A DNA stretch of 64,000 bases from Robertmurraya sp. FSL R5-0851 (GTDB lineage: Bacteria; Bacillota; Bacilli; Bacillales; Cytobacillaceae): positions 2,337,001-2,401,000 of the forward strand of contig NZ_JBBOOE010000001.1 of the NCBI RefSeq assembly GCF_038002965.1, given 5' to 3'. Below, piece by piece: positions 17,132 through 59,940 of this stretch (position 1 is the first letter of the stretch; the number at the start of each line of letters is the position of its first letter). The notes under the pieces were generated by a model. It was not told the DNA's origin. It searched no databases and was given only the letters and a program-made list of their open reading frames with translations. Both the position numbers and the translations under genes were made by a program.

Positions 17132-17608
17132 ATGAAACGAGGATCCACATTATTTTTAAGAATGGCACTTGTTCTTATTGGGCTTCCAGTTCTAGCTTTA
17201 GGTATTTTTGGGTTCACTTGGTTGCCCCAGCATCCAATCAATCCAAGTTATGACCACATTCTCTATCCCATTATTGTAGGGATGTATGTATCTGCCCTAC
17301 CGTTCTTCGGTGCCTTGTATCAGGCGTTCAAACTTTTGAACTATATTGACAAAAACGAAGCTTTTTCTGAGCTGTCTGTGAAAGCACTACAGAAGATCAA
17401 ATTCTGTGCCTTGACCTTCAGTGGGTTGTATGTGGTCGTTCTGCCATTTGTGTATGTGGTCGCCGAAATTGATGATGCACCTGGCCTGATTCTCATGGGA
17501 ATGGTTCCTACCTTTGCTTCTTTGGTCATCGCTGTCTTCGCTGCGGTTCTCCAACGACTATTAAAAGAAGCAATTGATATCAAATCTGAAAATGATTTAA
17601 CGGTCTGA
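17132..17608 (+). CDS. DUF2975 integral membrane protein
   Basis: The 158-residue protein has four hydrophobic segments: FLRMALVLIGLPVLALGIFGF, HILYPIIVGMYVSALPFFGAL, IKFCALTFSGLYVVVLPFVYV and LILMGMVPTFASLVIAVFAAV. The cytosolic KLLNYIDKNEAFSELSVKALQKIK motif between TM2 and TM3 is characteristic of DUF2975. The start at 17132 follows GAGGTG. It is followed after 10 bases by a YozG-like XRE regulator, a pairing widely conserved in Firmicutes (B. subtilis yoaS/yozG). Biochemical function is unknown. Confidence 0.85.
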   Translation: MKRGSTLFLRMALVLIGLPVLALGIFGFTWLPQHPINPSYDHILYPIIVGMYVSALPFFGALYQAFKLLNYIDKNEAFSELSVKALQKIKFCALTFSGLYVVVLPFVYVVAEIDDAPGLILMGMVPTFASLVIAVFAAVLQRLLKEAIDIKSENDLTV

Positions 17609-17618
17609 GGTGAATATA

Positions 17619-17843
17619 ATGGCGATAATTATTAATGTTGATGTGATGTTGGCGAAACGGAAGATGAGTGTAACCGAACTTTCGGAGAGAGTGGGAATCA
17701 CTATGGCAAACCTTTCGATCTTGAAAAATGGAAAAGCCAAGGCGATTCGATTATCCACGTTAGATGCCATATGCAAGGCTTTGGACTGTCAGCCTGGAGA
17801 TATTTTGGAGTATCGAAGGGATGAGGAAAATCAAGAATCGTAG
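17619..17843 (+). CDS. small XRE-family regulator, YozG-like
   Basis: This 74-residue protein is almost entirely a Cro/C1-type helix-turn-helix: VDVMLAKRKMSVTELSERVGITMANLSILKNGKAKAIRLSTLDAICKALDCQPGDILEY. The GAGGTGA ribosome binding site supports the ATG at 17619. It sits directly behind the DUF2975 membrane gene; in this conserved pair the regulator is thought to act on the operon itself, which is inference here. Confidence 0.9.
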   Translation: MAIIINVDVMLAKRKMSVTELSERVGITMANLSILKNGKAKAIRLSTLDAICKALDCQPGDILEYRRDEENQES

Positions 17844-35283: not shown

Positions 35284-35313
35284 AATGCCAAGTGAATATC
35301 TCCACCTGGCATT
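35284..35313 (-). terminator. rho-independent terminator on the minus strand
   Basis: AATGCCA and TGGCATT with extra GTG/CAC pairing form a stem followed on the minus strand by TTTCTTT. It lies upstream of the STAND NTPase and would stop transcripts arriving from the decayed ABC gene. Confidence 0.65.
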
Positions 35314-35396
35314 CTTCTAATGGCTTATGGTTTAAAAATCGTGCCTCTCCTAGTATTGCAAGTGTAAGTTAGAGGATGCATGAGGAATGATTACCA

Positions 35397-35425
35397 TTGA
35401 ATTAAACATCAAATCATAGTAATAT
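35397..35425 (+). promoter_or_regulatory. sigma-A-type promoter for the candidate structured RNA
   Basis: TTGAAT and TAATAT are separated by exactly 17 bases on the plus strand. Transcription would start near 35432, at the base of a long helix. Confidence 0.55.
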
Positions 35426-35431
35426 AAGTAC

Positions 35432-35668
35432 ATCAGCTGCATTGTTCGTATTCATAATAAAGTTTTAACCTTTAAGCTGTAATAGGGAGTTTAACATCGA
35501 AACACGAATGACAAGTCTCCGTCTATACGACAAGGAGGACAGGCAGGAATGTTTCTGCGAACACCCACTTTGAGGAGTGGTGGTTTAAAACTTTCTTATC
35601 CTTTAATACGGCAAATGCGGCACTACATATGAGAGAAACCAGTTTCCATTGGAGACTGGTTTTTTTCA
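35432..35668 (+). ncRNA. candidate structured non-coding RNA of unknown class
   Basis: No gene fits this stretch, but it has a promoter-like sequence, a long closing helix and an intrinsic terminator. Paired blocks, outside to inside: 35436-35443 with 35614-35621 (one G-U), 35447-35452 with 35605-35610, 35454-35457 with 35596-35599, and 35459-35470 with 35582-35594 (12 pairs, one bulge). Inside, GTCTCC/GGAGGAC, GCAG/CTGC and CCACT/AGTGG form smaller hairpins. The transcript would be about 235 bases. I could not match it to 6S, SRP, tmRNA, RNase P or a riboswitch I can recall. It could be a free-standing RNA or the leader of a deleted gene. Confidence 0.6.
35637..35667 (+). terminator. rho-independent terminator of the candidate RNA
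   Basis: AACCAGTTTCC and GGAGACTGGTT form a stem around ATT, followed by a run of seven T. It closely resembles the terminator behind the znuA stump at 40412-40440. Confidence 0.85.
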
Positions 35669-35737
35669 TTAGAAAATGGATATCAGTTCTTTTGTATAAG
35701 GATGGCGATCGGTACTAAATAGCTGTTCTTGGTTGAA

Positions 35738-36156
35738 CTAATCGACTATCTCCCCATCTTTCATAACCATGATTCTTTGGCTCATTTGGTTAACGGCAGC
35801 AAGATCATGTGAAATAAACAAATAAGAAAGATTCAAGGTTTCACGAAGCTCTGTTAAAAGAGTGAGCACGGCCCCCTGGGAAATCACATCTAAGCTTGCG
35901 GTCGGCTCATCTAGAACAATCAGATCTGGCTCAATACTGATCGAACGCGCAATCGTTACACGTTGCTTTTGTCCGCCACTTAATTCATGCGGATATTGAT
36001 TCGCTACATGTGAAGGCAGTTCCACCGCTTCAAGAAGCTGTCGGATAATGCGTCCTTTGAGGTATAGGAAAAATGACTAAGGACGAATTCTTTTCTATAC
36101 TGTTCATAAGGTTCAAAGATGGATTCTTTTATTTTCAGCTTTGGATTAAGCAGCTG
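35738..36156 (-). pseudogene. truncated, frameshifted ABC transporter ATPase (OppF/NikE type)
   Basis: The intact 3' half reads ELPSHVANQYPHELSGGQKQRVTIARS, then LIVLDEPTASLDVIS and YLFISHDLAAVNQM: signature, Walker B and H-loop of a peptide/nickel-type ATPase. A frameshift near 36025-36070 separates it from QLLNPKLKIKESIFEPYEQY, the Q-loop region. The Walker A end is missing upstream of about 36156. It is related to, but not identical with, the intact ATPase at 40462-41244. The rest of its transporter is not present, so this is a relic. Confidence 0.8.
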
Positions 36157-36285
36157 TCGGGTTTTGAAATACGATTTGAATTTTTTTTCGATAAGGATAT
36201 AATTCACCATATCGGTCAATTTTCTGTTTGGGAAAGAGAATTAGAACTAATGGCTGTATCTGCTAAATTATCGGTAGAAAGTTAA
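36157..36285 (+). pseudogene. possible 3' fragment of a DinB-like protein gene
   Basis: A plus-strand frame ending at 36285 reads GFEIRFEFFF then DKDIIHHIGQFSVWERELEL. The HHIGQ segment resembles the C-terminal metal-ligand helix of DinB/YfiT-type proteins. A plus-strand terminator follows at 36330. The start and most of the protein are absent. The match is short, so this is tentative. Confidence 0.3.
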
Positions 36286-36329
36286 AATCTGTATATTCTT
36301 ATTAAAGTATGCTTAGTTGAACAAGGATT

Positions 36330-36367
36330 GGGAAACCATTCTAGTTTGGTTCCCTTTGTTTTTTTCT
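36330..36367 (+). terminator. rho-independent terminator on the plus strand
   Basis: GGGAAACCA and TGGTTCCC pair around an 8-base loop, followed by TTTGTTTTTTT. No intact plus-strand gene precedes it, which supports a lost gene here. Confidence 0.7.
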
Positions 36368-36407
36368 AATTATCTATTTAACATTTACCACAGCCTTCAT
36401 AAAAAAT

Positions 36408-36436
36408 AAGGCTGATTTCTTTTTAAAATCAGCCTT
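36408..36436 (-). terminator. rho-independent terminator of the rpmE2-rpsN2 unit
   Basis: AAGGCTGATTT and AAATCAGCCTT are perfect 11-bp arms; on the minus strand they are followed by ATTTTTTAT. It ends the unit containing the 118-residue protein gene. Confidence 0.88.
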
Positions 36437-36442
36437 ACTATC

Positions 36443-36799
36443 CTACGAGGTAACAAAGAAATACTGTACCTGTTGATTGGTTTCTACTTGCTTTCCATGT
36501 AATTGTTCAGTAAAATCAATCCACTTATAATTCTTCAGTTTATTTTCAAGCTTTTCGCTAATTTCATCTTCAATGTCATGCATGACCCTTACCGTTTCTT
36601 CTATTGACATGTTGAATCGCTCGGCCGCTTGATGGTGTGGGGAATGTTCCCTTAGAAGGGCTAAGAATTCTTCCCTCGTATCGGATTGCTGAGCAAGAGA
36701 ATCTTCAATGCTTTCAATAAATTGGTAGAGCTTTCTCCGATTCCTTGGCAAGGAAGCTACAATATTTCTTACGAAAACCTCCATCATTTTTTCATTCAT
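36443..36799 (-). CDS. hypothetical protein in the zinc-response cluster
   Basis: The 118-residue acidic, helical protein has no signal or membrane segment. The N-terminal half (VRNIVASLPRNRRKLYQFIESIEDSL) and middle (SPHHQAAERFNMSIEETVRVMHDIEDEI) resemble a small helix-turn-helix, and the tail ends QVETNQQVQYFFVTS. I do not recognise the family. It lies 20 bases downstream of rpsN2 and before a strong terminator, so it should be induced by zinc limitation together with the ribosomal protein gene. Confidence 0.65.
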   Translation of the reverse strand: MNEKMMEVFVRNIVASLPRNRRKLYQFIESIEDSLAQQSDTREEFLALLREHSPHHQAAERFNMSIEETVRVMHDIEDEISEKLENKLKNYKWIDFTEQLHGKQVETNQQVQYFFVTS

Positions 36800-36819
36800 G
36801 ATCCATGCCCTTCTTTCTT

Positions 36820-37089
36820 TTACCAGCTGGATTTCTTTACACCAGGGATCTGACCCTTATGGGCAAGCTCACGAAAGGCAATACGCGACATCTTAAATTT
36901 TCTCAAATATCCTCTTGGTCTGCCAGTCACTAAGCAGCGATTGTGAAGACGGGAAGGAGCTGAATCACGTGGTAGCTTACTTAACGCTTCATAATCCCCT
37001 TTTTCCTTTAGTTCTCTTCTCTTTTCTGCGTATTGTTCCACTAGCTTTTGTCTTTTAAGTTCTTTTGCCACTTTAGACTTCTTTGCCAT
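36820..37089 (-). CDS. rpsN2: alternative 30S ribosomal protein S14, zinc-independent
   Basis: This 89-residue protein is the long C-minus form of S14: it lacks the paired CxxC zinc ligands of the 61-residue housekeeping form and carries the conserved core [31 protein letters not shown] and PGVKKSSW. In Bacillus the equivalent (yhzA/rpsNB) replaces zinc-containing S14 when zinc is scarce and is Zur-regulated. A Zur-box-like site lies 24 bases upstream of the start. AGGAGG sits before the ATG. Confidence 0.95.
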
Positions 37090-37112
37090 ATTAGACTCCT
37101 CCTATATGATAA

Positions 37113-37127
37113 GCATAATCATTACGA
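37113..37127. promoter_or_regulatory. Zur-box-like site upstream of rpsN2
   Basis: The 15 bases match TCGTAATNATTACGA at 12 of the 14 specified positions, with a complete right half. It lies between rpmE2 and rpsN2, so rpsN2 may have its own zinc-controlled promoter. Confidence 0.65.
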
Positions 37128-37128
37128 T

Positions 37129-37380
37129 TTATTTTTCTTTCATATTGTATTTCTGAAGGAAACGATCCACTCTTCCGCCTTTATCTGCGAACTTCTGCTT
37201 GCCTGTGTAGAAGGGATGGGTGTCCGAACTAACTTCTACTTTTAGTAAGGGGTACGTATTTCCATCTTCCCATTCAATCTTCTCGTTCGATCTTTTTGTA
37301 GAACCGGTTAAGAATTTATAGCCACTGTTCACGTCCATAAAGACCACTTTATTGTAAGTAGGATGTGTATTTGGTTTCAT
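37129..37380 (-). CDS. rpmE2: alternative 50S ribosomal protein L31, type B
   Basis: The 83-residue protein is the C-minus type-B L31: [28 protein letters not shown], lacking the CxxC zinc ligands of type A, and ending [24 protein letters not shown]. In Bacillus (ytiA) it displaces zinc-containing L31 during zinc starvation, which frees zinc. GGAGG precedes the ATG. I see no good Zur box directly upstream; instead the leader contains an unusual phased array of palindromes (37404-37550). Confidence 0.95.
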
Positions 37381-37403
37381 ATTTTTTTACCTCCGATTAT
37401 TTT

Positions 37404-37550
37404 TTATGACAAATGCTCTTCCTTTTTCTCGCTACGGAAGTCATAACACTCTCTTTATGACTTCTCCCCTTCCTTATCCCATGCATCAGACGTCATAACT
37501 TTCACTTTATGACCTCTGTAACCTCCTATTTGATACCCAACGAGTCATAA
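37404..37550. repeat. phased array of GTCATAA/TTATGAC palindromes upstream of rpmE2
   Basis: Two full sites, GTCATAA-N8-TTATGAC at 37440-37461 and 37492-37513, are exactly 52 bases apart. Single half-sites occur at 37544-37550 (again 52 bases on) and 37404-37410 (51 bases before). The first full site extends to a 10-bp palindrome at 37437-37464. The array fills the gap between cobW and rpmE2 and could be a multi-dimer operator or, in RNA, tandem hairpins. It does not match the Zur, Fur, MntR or CzrA sites I know. Confidence 0.7.
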
Positions 37551-37557
37551 ATCTTCC

Positions 37558-38751
37558 TCACACCGTTACTTCTTCTACATAAAAAGGTGGCAGTGGATCA
37601 CTTAGCTTGTTCCAATCTTGATCCATTTCCTCTTCTGTTAATAAACAGGCATCTAGGCTCTCTATCAGTTCTTCTTTGTTAAAATCTATGCCGATAAAAA
37701 CAAGTTCATTCATTCGGTCACCATACTCCTTATCCCAACGTTCCAGTAATTCTGGTTCCTCCTCCAGAATTCTCGCTTGTTCTTCTTTAGGAGCTGCGGC
37801 AATCCATTCTCCTGCTCCCTGAAAGATAATAGAGGGCCCAGCCTGCGAGAGTAGACCTGTCATATCGTTTCGAGTCGCTAACCAGAAGAACCCCTTCGCA
37901 CGAACAATTTCTGATGGCCAATTTTCCAACCAATGATTCCATCTTTCTGGATGAAATGGCTTTCTACTGCGATACACAAAGGAAGAGATTCCGTACTCCT
38001 CTGTCTCTGGTGTATGCTCTTCATTTAACTCCTTAATCCAGCCTGCCGCTTGACTTGCTTTGTCAAAATCAAACAGCCCCGTATGTAGGATATTTGATAA
38101 AGCAACAACAGAATGTGCACTTTCAACCACTTTCGCCTCTGGGTTCAGCTTTTGAAGCACGGCTTTTAATTCCTCCATGCTTTCTTGACTCACTAAATCA
38201 ATTTTATTTAAGATAAGAACATTCGCAAATTCAATCTGATCTATGAGTAGATCTACCACTTCCCTTGTATCGGTTTCATCATTCGCCTGTTTTCTATCAA
38301 GGAGACTTTCACCTGAAGCAAAGTCATGCCAAAAACGATTCGCGTCAACCACCGTCACCATCGTATCCAGTTGACAGTACTCAGACAGGTTCATTCCTAA
38401 GTCTTCATCCAAATAACTAAACGTTTGTGCAACGGGTACAGGCTCAGAAATCCCCGATGATTCGATCAAGATATAATCAATATCCCCTTCTTTCACAAGC
38501 CGCTCTACTTCCACCATTAAGTCCTCGCGCAATGTACAGCAAATACAGCCATTCTGCATTTCAACCAGCTTTTCTTCCGTGCGGCTGAATCCACCTTTTT
38601 TCACCATGGACGCATCAATATTTACCTCGCTCATATCGTTAACAATAACGGCAAACTTTAAATTTTCTTTGTTTTGTAACACATGATTTAACAAGGTCGT
38701 CTTCCCCGAACCTAAGTATCCACTTAAAACCGTTACCGGTACCTTTCTCAT
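37558..38751 (-). CDS. COG0523 GTPase, zinc metallochaperone-like (YciC/ZagA type)
   Basis: This 397-residue G3E GTPase has Walker A GYLGSGKT at residues 11-18, the metal-binding CxCC motif NGCICCTLRED at 68-76, ESSGISEPVPVAQTF, the base-specificity region NVLILNKIDLV, and a CobW_C domain to the end. Bacillus orthologues (YciC/ZagA) are Zur-repressed and deliver metal, or support folate synthesis, under zinc limitation. I chose 38751 because GGGAG lies just upstream; an ATG at 38772 lacks a site. A Zur-like box at 38776 precedes it. Despite the family name it is unlikely to belong to the cobalamin operon. Confidence 0.9.
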   Translation of the reverse strand: MRKVPVTVLSGYLGSGKTTLLNHVLQNKENLKFAVIVNDMSEVNIDASMVKKGGFSRTEEKLVEMQNGCICCTLREDLMVEVERLVKEGDIDYILIESSGISEPVPVAQTFSYLDEDLGMNLSEYCQLDTMVTVVDANRFWHDFASGESLLDRKQANDETDTREVVDLLIDQIEFANVLILNKIDLVSQESMEELKAVLQKLNPEAKVVESAHSVVALSNILHTGLFDFDKASQAAGWIKELNEEHTPETEEYGISSFVYRSRKPFHPERWNHWLENWPSEIVRAKGFFWLATRNDMTGLLSQAGPSIIFQGAGEWIAAAPKEEQARILEEEPELLERWDKEYGDRMNELVFIGIDFNKEELIESLDACLLTEEEMDQDWNKLSDPLPPFYVEEVTV

Positions 38752-38775
38752 CCTCTTCTCTCCCTTGTTCATTTT

Positions 38776-38790
38776 TAGGAATCATTACGA
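38776..38790. promoter_or_regulatory. Zur-box-like site upstream of the COG0523 GTPase gene
   Basis: The site matches TCGTAATNATTACGA at 12 of 14 specified positions with a perfect right half. It lies in the short gap between the flavoprotein and GTPase genes. Confidence 0.6.
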
Positions 38791-38798
38791 TTTAAATT

Positions 38799-39959
38799 TT
38801 ATAAACTAGCAACAATTTTTTCGGCTGCCTGTCTGGCACCAGAAATATTTCTAGCAATTGGGCCGATCTCCAACTCTGCCAACGGTCCCATCACATACAA
38901 ATGCGGACACCACTGAAGGTTTTTGCTGACAATTGGATAGCCACAATTGGCACAATGTAAATGTTCTTCTTCAATCAGTTTCTCTACCCAGTTGCCAGGT
39001 CTTGTTGGGTAAAATCCTGTTGCAAGTAATACATGTCGGGCTTGATAAGACTTAGAGCTTACGTGTAGGGTTAGATACTCCTGTTCCATTGCATAAGAGT
39101 TTACTTCTCCGTCAACAATACGTAGCTTTTGCTTAGCTTCTAGACCCTTTATTTTATGAAAGACGTCCTTAGGTACAGAGCCTTTTAATCTAGCCTCTTT
39201 TATCTGTTCTCGACGAATCGTATAATCCATCACCCTACGATAGGGCCCTTGTCGTTTTACCCCTAACCAGCCTGGATCACTATCAAAATCATGAACCCGA
39301 AAAGGATGACGTTTGATTAAGGTCACTTCACCAGGAAATTCTCTTGCCATCTTGATGGCAAGATGAGCTGCCGTAATCCCTCCCCCAATGATTGCAATCG
39401 GAGGTTTCATTTCCTTTAGATTTTCGAGCTTATCGTCAAATATATGGTGAACCTGTTTCGGAGAATGGAAAGCAAGTTCCTTTGCCCAATCAGGTACCAA
39501 TAGTTGCTCATTTACACTAATCGCTATGACCACATTTTTCGATTGAATCATTTTTCCATCTTCCGTTGTTACTTCCCATCCCCCTTTAGCTTTTTGAACC
39601 TTTTCCACTACTCCTCTATACCAACTTTTCTTCAAGTTGAAATCAGAAATTATTTTTTCACTATGGTCGTTAAACAATTGTAGCGATGGACGGTTATACA
39701 CCCCATAAAATGGGTTATGTAGATCGGTTTGCTTTCCGAATTGCAGCAAACTAAAAGGATGAACATCAATATGATGAACGGACGGAGACCGAAGAAATGT
39801 CATACCGATTCTTTCCGTATTTCGTTTCCATCTTGCCATGGGCTCCGAATGGGGATCGATGATACATAGTTTCTCATTTCGAACTTTCCCATGTTTAAGT
39901 AAATACGTTGAAATCGTACAGCCATGAATTCCGCCTCCGATCACTAACCAATCAAACAT
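38799..39959 (-). CDS. FAD/NAD(P)-binding flavoprotein in the Zur cluster
   Basis: The 386-residue protein has an N-terminal Rossmann motif FDWLVIGGGIHGCTIS and a second dinucleotide site PIAIIGGGITAAHLAIKMA near residue 190, plus HVLLATGFYPTRPG. This layout is that of flavin monooxygenase/SidA-like proteins. A C-terminal HCANCGYPIVSKNLQWCPHLYV contains three cysteines that may bind metal. The substrate is unknown. A strong Zur-like box lies 23 bases upstream, and the GTPase gene follows closely, so the two are part of the zinc-starvation response. Confidence 0.8.
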   Translation of the reverse strand: MFDWLVIGGGIHGCTISTYLLKHGKVRNEKLCIIDPHSEPMARWKRNTERIGMTFLRSPSVHHIDVHPFSLLQFGKQTDLHNPFYGVYNRPSLQLFNDHSEKIISDFNLKKSWYRGVVEKVQKAKGGWEVTTEDGKMIQSKNVVIAISVNEQLLVPDWAKELAFHSPKQVHHIFDDKLENLKEMKPPIAIIGGGITAAHLAIKMAREFPGEVTLIKRHPFRVHDFDSDPGWLGVKRQGPYRRVMDYTIRREQIKEARLKGSVPKDVFHKIKGLEAKQKLRIVDGEVNSYAMEQEYLTLHVSSKSYQARHVLLATGFYPTRPGNWVEKLIEEEHLHCANCGYPIVSKNLQWCPHLYVMGPLAELEIGPIARNISGARQAAEKIVASL

Positions 39960-39981
39960 TTTTTGACCTCCTTCCCTTTAA

Positions 39982-39996
39982 TCGTAATTGTTACGA
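39982..39996. promoter_or_regulatory. Zur box upstream of the flavoprotein gene
   Basis: TCGTAATTGTTACGA matches the Bacillus Zur consensus TCGTAATNATTACGA at all but one position and extends as a palindrome in the flanks. It sits just upstream of the gene's ribosome binding site. Confidence 0.85.
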
Positions 39997-40105
39997 TTTA
40001 CATTCTAAACAAAATGAAAAATAAACACAACCCCCTTTTTGAAAATTTTTGCTGATGCTTCTACCTTTGCTCTTTTCATAAATTTTTCAAATAATCAATT
40101 GCAAA

Positions 40106-40120
40106 TCGTAATGATTACTA
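40106..40120. promoter_or_regulatory. Zur box, first of two before the znuA stump
   Basis: TCGTAATGATTACTA matches the consensus at all but one position. With the next box it forms the divergent control region between the flavoprotein and the former znuA gene. Confidence 0.85.
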
Positions 40121-40136
40121 TTATAATCAACATAAA

Positions 40137-40151
40137 TCGAAATTATTACGA
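40137..40151. promoter_or_regulatory. Zur box, second of two before the znuA stump
   Basis: TCGAAATTATTACGA matches the consensus at all but one position and starts 31 bases after the preceding box, about three helical turns. Confidence 0.85.
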
Positions 40152-59589: not shown

Positions 59590-59682
59590 TGAAATGACAG
59601 TATAAAAAGCATACTGAAATACAAAAACAATAGGTATAATTGTCCCGCCTATACTTCTCCCACCGAAAAGCAAGTGTCGTTT

Positions 59683-59835
59683 AAATAAGCAGGTTTCCTG
59701 ACTTAAGCTTCTTTTTACTCTTACACCTTCCCGATTTCTCAGTGGCATTGTAATTTCATCAGCTCTTACAGTAGCGGGGGCTGTACTAGACTTTCACTAG
59801 TTTCCCTTTTACCTCACAAATGTGAGCACTTATTT
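59683..59835 (-). promoter_or_regulatory. cobalamin (B12) riboswitch, complete aptamer
   Basis: On the minus strand the conserved blocks appear in order: AAAAGGGAA, GTGAAAGTC, ACAGCCCCCGCTACTGT, GCCACTG, CGGGAAGG and the B12 box AAGTCAGGAAACCTGC. AAATAAG at the 5' end pairs with CTTATTT at the 3' end (P1). Binding of cobalamin should favour the downstream terminator and repress the cobalamin operon. Confidence 0.95.
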
Positions 59836-59940
59836 AAATTTAATTATTAAATTTTTTATAAATATACCATATAAACTCGGTTAACATACTATTTTTTTTG
59901 AAAATTTAATAAAAACCTCCACTAGAATATTCCACTTAAT

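Follow-up and report, generated by a model that had tools for sequence, protein, structure and literature searches.

The gene at 35431–35627 on the plus strand of the window (the whole 64,000-nucleotide stretch of Robertmurraya sp. FSL R5-0851 DNA analysed here) is an ordinary member of the described 6S RNA family, of the 6S-2 (bsrB) type, and no new kind of RNA. Its assignment comes from the Rfam family RF00013, from its position in sequence trees and from covariation; the coordinates are the ends of the family model, not mapped ends. We hold it very nearly certain that the gene is best explained as a 6S-2 RNA, that is, a decoy of the sigma-A RNA polymerase that is freed via pRNA synthesis, comparable to the 6S RNAs of B. 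subtilis.

Family membership

An Rfam scan of the whole 64-kb window at gathering thresholds gave two matches, 6S/SsrS and a cobalamin riboswitch at 59671–59848 on the minus strand (114.7 bits). The 6S match on the plus strand spans the full model (1–187) and scores 65.5 bits where the gathering score is 46.4 (E = 1e-10), and the alignment retains the closing stem, the central bubble and the apical arm. A sequence-only reading had called the RNA unclassified, which was wrong given that it passes a curated threshold over the complete model. It had also left two options open, a 6S-like regulator and a metal-sensing RNA. The first is the one that the RF00013 match and the 6S-2 clade bear out; the second finds no support, as no riboswitch family matches 35300–35750 even at E values of up to 1. 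Weaker Rfam rows (SpF36, EF3314_EF3315 and MIR5649) are far under their gathering scores and all lie over the terminator hairpin. A riboswitch or a new RNA class is rejected in view of the Rfam result together with the trees.

6S-1 or 6S-2

The window genome has two 6S genes over the cut-off. The other copy scores higher than the window copy (102.7 versus 65.5 bits). The genes around it encode MgsA_C, ThiF, and tRNA-synt_2 plus GAD domains, a set that recurs around one B. spizizenii 6S locus (L113). Judged by these domains, the neighbours can be read as rarA, yrvM/tcdA and aspS. The B. subtilis 6S-1 gene, bsrA, is described as flanked by aspS and yrvM (PMC11077062), and rarA is placed near the bsrA locus (PMC8414754). 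Because the neighbours are shared with B. spizizenii, and because aspS and yrvM flank bsrA, the other copy is 6S-1.

The window copy falls elsewhere. In a tree of 26 sequences it shares a clade with the second 6S of B. spizizenii and that of B. inaquosorum, the B. subtilis-group copies away from aspS, and the two clades split at 100/100, with bootstraps that had not fully settled. In the 127-sequence tree, where the bootstraps were likewise not fully settled, it is again found in the 6S-2 clade (55 rows, 100/99) and apart from the 6S-1 clade (63 rows, 99/100), with 9 rows outside both. R. korlensis G061 (= G003) and Litchfieldia salsa G055 (= G064) had been left out as duplicates by equal coordinates. 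With 6S-1 (bsrA) the window RNA shares the family RF00013, but it differs in clade, in identity (43% to the genome's own 6S-1) and in the motif TTTTAACCTTTA, which none of the 18 compared 6S-1 rows contains.

With the B. subtilis-group 6S-2 (bsrB) it shares the tree clade, the letters of the pRNA template and the layout of promoter, RNA and terminator, whereas it is only 71–72% identical to the B. spizizenii and B. inaquosorum copies and has different neighbours. The second B. spizizenii copy adjoins a RecQ-type helicase gene and a flavodoxin-fold gene, at what we take to be the yocI–yocJ site of bsrB; the window copy lies near a TPR protein gene and an ABC-transporter fragment. No RecQ-type or flavodoxin-fold neighbours were found in the window, although neighbours do not define an RNA. 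Membership in the 6S-2 clade, with neighbours unlike those of the second B. spizizenii copy, makes this a 6S-2 type gene at a different place.

Structure and covariation

All parts of the 6S rod, with covariation to support them, are found in the window RNA (all on the plus strand). In the consensus fold of 43 sequences the closing stem is formed by 35436–35450 pairing with 35607–35621, and helix P2 by 35460–35470 pairing with 35582–35593. The 5′ side of P2 lies in the predicted pRNA template (35460–35473). The 6S model, read together with the consensus fold, would place the 5′ side of the central bubble, the presumed mimic of an open promoter, at 35471–35484; the first bases of this side overlap the template and part of it is weakly paired in the consensus fold. 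Beyond it follows the apical arm (35485–35566), a series of interrupted stems (35485–35492/35559–35566, 35499–35504/35550–35555, 35509–35510/35544–35545 and 35516–35520/35534–35538).

The long-range helix described in the sequence-only reading was recovered: the minimum-energy fold of 35426–35668 contains the closing helix, in blocks close to those first described, and has a z-score of −6.48, with none of 200 shuffles as stable. With the Rfam alignment the closing helix as first described agrees in part. When the terminator is excluded (35431–35627), the z-score is −3.54 and again none of 200 shuffles is as stable. Three internal hairpins had been proposed as well. Several hairpins do appear in the single-sequence fold, but the 43-sequence comparative fold and the Rfam model give one long interrupted apical arm in their place (about 35485–35566).

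Compensatory changes, which that reading had suggested looking for, were assessed in an alignment of 43 close 6S-2 sequences, the window included, out of the 127 tree rows; the 84 rows left out comprise 63 6S-1 rows, 11 divergent 6S-2 rows, 9 that belong to neither clade and a single further row (L187). Standard pairs occupy 98.2% of the paired cells against 96.3% in shuffles. Two-sided changes occur in 39 cells (11.0 in shuffles), and 11 of the 48 pairs have at least one (4.1 in shuffles), 9 of these 11 in the apical arm. None of 500 shuffles reaches the observed value for pairing, for two-sided cells or for two-sided pairs, in a test that is biased toward the structure, which itself comes from this alignment. 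Sliding the partners by one to three columns lowers pairing to 45–53% and the covariation score from 0.113 to 0.031–0.048. The count of two-sided pairs alone does not separate the structure from these slid controls: controls −1 and −2 have 10 such pairs against 11, although their two-sided cells number 15, compared with 39 for the structure. Little covariation comes from helices 2 to 4, in which the sequence hardly varies.

Promoter and terminator

Just upstream of the RNA lies a sigma-A type promoter, TTGAAT-17-TAATAT, at 35397–35425 on the plus strand (hexamers 35397–35402 and 35420–35425). By our own count 8 of its 12 positions agree with the sigma-70 consensus, and a simple promoter scan that requires 9 of 12 does not list it. 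The pattern TTGNNN-(16 to 18)-TANNRT, picked after the sequences had been viewed, occurs just upstream of the 5′ end in 42 of the 43 close 6S-2 sequences, the window included (mean of 0.98 of 43 in 200 shuffles); the sole exception is L145. The window promoter thus appears weak by consensus, yet its conservation supports it.

An intrinsic terminator, the hairpin AAACCAGTTTCC-ATT-GGAGACTGGTTT followed by a T run to 35666, can be read directly and folded at 35636–35666 on the plus strand. A simple terminator scan lists none at this RNA. A strict test that accepts perfect arms only is passed by 7 of the 43 sequences, the window not among them (0.02 in shuffles). All 43 pass a folding test, the window with −15.8 kcal/mol (0.5 per 43 in shuffles), whose criteria were fixed after the strict test had failed for most rows. 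Since simple scans list neither element, the case for both comes from the relatives and from folding. The sequence-only reading was right to describe a structured RNA with its own 17-base-spaced promoter and its own intrinsic terminator.

Template and proposed mechanism

The template AAGTTTTAACCTTT is found in 39 of the 43 close 6S-2 sequences, those of B. spizizenii and B. inaquosorum included; variants occur in L158, L213, L168 and L174. By the rules in the literature we infer a pRNA 5′-AAAGGUUAAAACUU, whose synthesis would start opposite U35473. The predicted pRNA has GG at positions 4/5, and in the template an A (35474) adjoins the start base. We take the B. subtilis 6S-2 pRNA to have the same start. 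Both GG at these positions and an A beside the template start base are stated features of 6S RNAs (PMC8414754).

The analysis itself shows to which family and paralogue type the RNA belongs, together with its conserved structure, its promoter and terminator and the sequence of its template; the proposed function leans on B. subtilis. As in that species, the gene would be transcribed from its own sigma-A promoter and transcription would stop at its own terminator. The transcript is predicted to fold into a rod whose central bubble imitates an open promoter, and the RNA may then occupy the sigma-A RNA polymerase holoenzyme, which would damp transcription at many promoters. With NTPs in good supply, the polymerase would use the RNA as template from U35473, yielding a short pRNA that begins with AAAGGUUAAAACUU; this synthesis would open helix P2, the RNA would refold and the enzyme would be freed. 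Reportedly, going by the title of a 2021 paper, deletion of 6S-2 in B. subtilis has a biofilm phenotype.

Published descriptions are in line with these steps: 6S RNAs are said to mimic an open promoter, bind the housekeeping holoenzyme and leave via pRNA synthesis (PMC8876501; PMC12005410). B. subtilis 6S-2 is enriched with sigma-A in RIP-seq and is described as a pRNA template whose level is reportedly highest in mid-exponential phase (PMC11077062). One paper from 2020 calls the function of 6S-2 unclear (PMC7726162).

Orthologues in the genus

Four congeners were searched. Three have three 6S matches each, by tree and identity one 6S-1 and two 6S-2-type copies; the fourth, a genome only 66% complete, has one. 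Among the 6S-2-type copies, identity to the window 6S is 95% for G001_B, G003_B and G004_B and 88–90% for the extra (C) copies. The R. korlensis B copy aligns to window positions 35359–36202 (849 columns, 91%), a stretch that spans the gene and adjacent sequence.

A search of the window genome did not find the extra copy. The flanks of a congener's extra locus are present there (92% and 84%), 253 bases apart versus 861 in the congener. Of 101 candidates for the missing stretch 40 were scored, and among the 31 matches listed the match at the window gene is the sole one to overlap the RNA part; another part of the stretch is a many-copy repeat. When the window gene was searched against its own genome, only the gene itself matched. 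An extra 6S-2 that is present in three congeners and not found here suggests that 6S copies come and go.

This turnover, together with the presence of another 6S in the genome, is what one could put forward for a functionless paralogue, either transcribed or silent. We consider that very unlikely: promoter, terminator and template of the window copy are intact, and the RNA body is 95% identical to that of three congeners while the promoter spacer between the hexamers, compared by eye, differs more.

Surroundings of the gene

The stretch had been described as having no gene, and Pfam agrees insofar as neither an antisense ORF of 48 aa (35523–35669) nor a plus-strand ORF of 70 aa has a match; the latter is among the ORFs on the plus strand at 35670–39500, none of which is listed as longer than 70 aa. 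The "decayed metal-transport genes" said to lie beside the RNA come down, as far as Pfam tells, to one truncated ABC-transporter ATPase fragment (35738–36025, minus strand), whose match is confined to the final 39 of 137 profile positions and whose substrate cannot be told. Its stretch is common to R. korlensis (the alignment reaches 36202), which suggests that the fragment predates the split of the species.

Farther downstream, the minus strand at 36820–40151 encodes L31, S14 and a CobW GTPase (Pfam), which looks like a zinc-starvation set; these zinc-type genes are on the strand opposite to the RNA. Using what we take to be the Zur box motif, we find boxes with one or two mismatches at 37113, 38776, 39982, 40106 and 40137. 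These five cluster at 36820–40151; the total of seven in the whole window is not significant alone (13 of 100 shuffles reach 7).

That a Zur-controlled-looking gene set lies about 1.2–4.5 kb from the RNA, and that long cis elements are possible, could be taken to suggest a metal-sensing riboswitch or another cis-regulatory RNA serving a neighbour gene, but we give this hardly any credence, since the RNA is closed by a terminator of its own, is followed by no listed plus-strand ORF longer than 70 aa up to 39500, matches no riboswitch family at E values of up to 1, has a same-type relative with a different neighbourhood in B. spizizenii, and has relatives in many genomes, of which those with surroundings inspected sit at different places.

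6S genes in unusual company

Some 6S genes elsewhere keep unusual company. At L214 (G021:C28, 9665–10674) a divergent 6S (87.2 bits) that belongs to neither the 6S-1 nor the 6S-2 clade is part of an array with four tRNAs and a tmRNA. Since another tmRNA above the cut-off lies elsewhere in that genome, the array may be an imported element; among phage and plasmid records none covers 80% of it, and the neighbouring ORFs are not phage-like by eye. Grouping loosely with L214 in the 127-row tree (100/64) is L141 (G010:C138), a divergent 6S that adjoins a large SRP RNA; its 26-kb contig belongs to a genome given as 9% contaminated. The Niallia sp. XMNu-256 plasmid NZ_CP137638.1 (L232; 22 kb) carries two 16S/23S/5S rRNA sets and 29 tRNA genes; its positions 17558–17786 align with 82% of the window 6S at 86% identity, a stretch that stays below the Rfam gathering score.

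Copy number and what it may mean

Across the 65 genomes with tree rows, 6S-1 is present in at least 63 and 6S-2, close or divergent, in at least 40; at least 10 have two or more close 6S-2 and at least 16 have three or more 6S overall. These counts are lower bounds, since most of the genomes were searched only with stricter filters, which missed the window copy itself. Under the same filters one genome of the larger search (G058) gave no 6S match. In one genome (G013, L135–L139) the 6S matches number five, of which three are close 6S-2, one is a divergent 6S-2 and one a 6S-1.

Published statements that we came across speak of one or two 6S copies. A literature search on three or multiple 6S copies and on Bacillaceae paralogs brought up nothing to the point, within a scope that lay outside the main 6S survey (Wehner 2014, cited in PMC7726162); "three 6S RNA" in one Bacillus paper means RNA variants on a gel.

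Identifying the gene gives the locus a proper name and removes one candidate new RNA class. Going further is speculative and may well prove wrong: in Robertmurraya and several other Bacillaceae 6S-2 would have multiplied with the pRNA template nearly fixed, so that cells may tune polymerase occupancy through 6S-2 dosage or through separate promoters, and the window species would apparently have gone back to one copy. The pattern of 6S-2 copy number in Bacillaceae, where the pRNA template hardly changes, could offer a way into the question of 6S-2 function.
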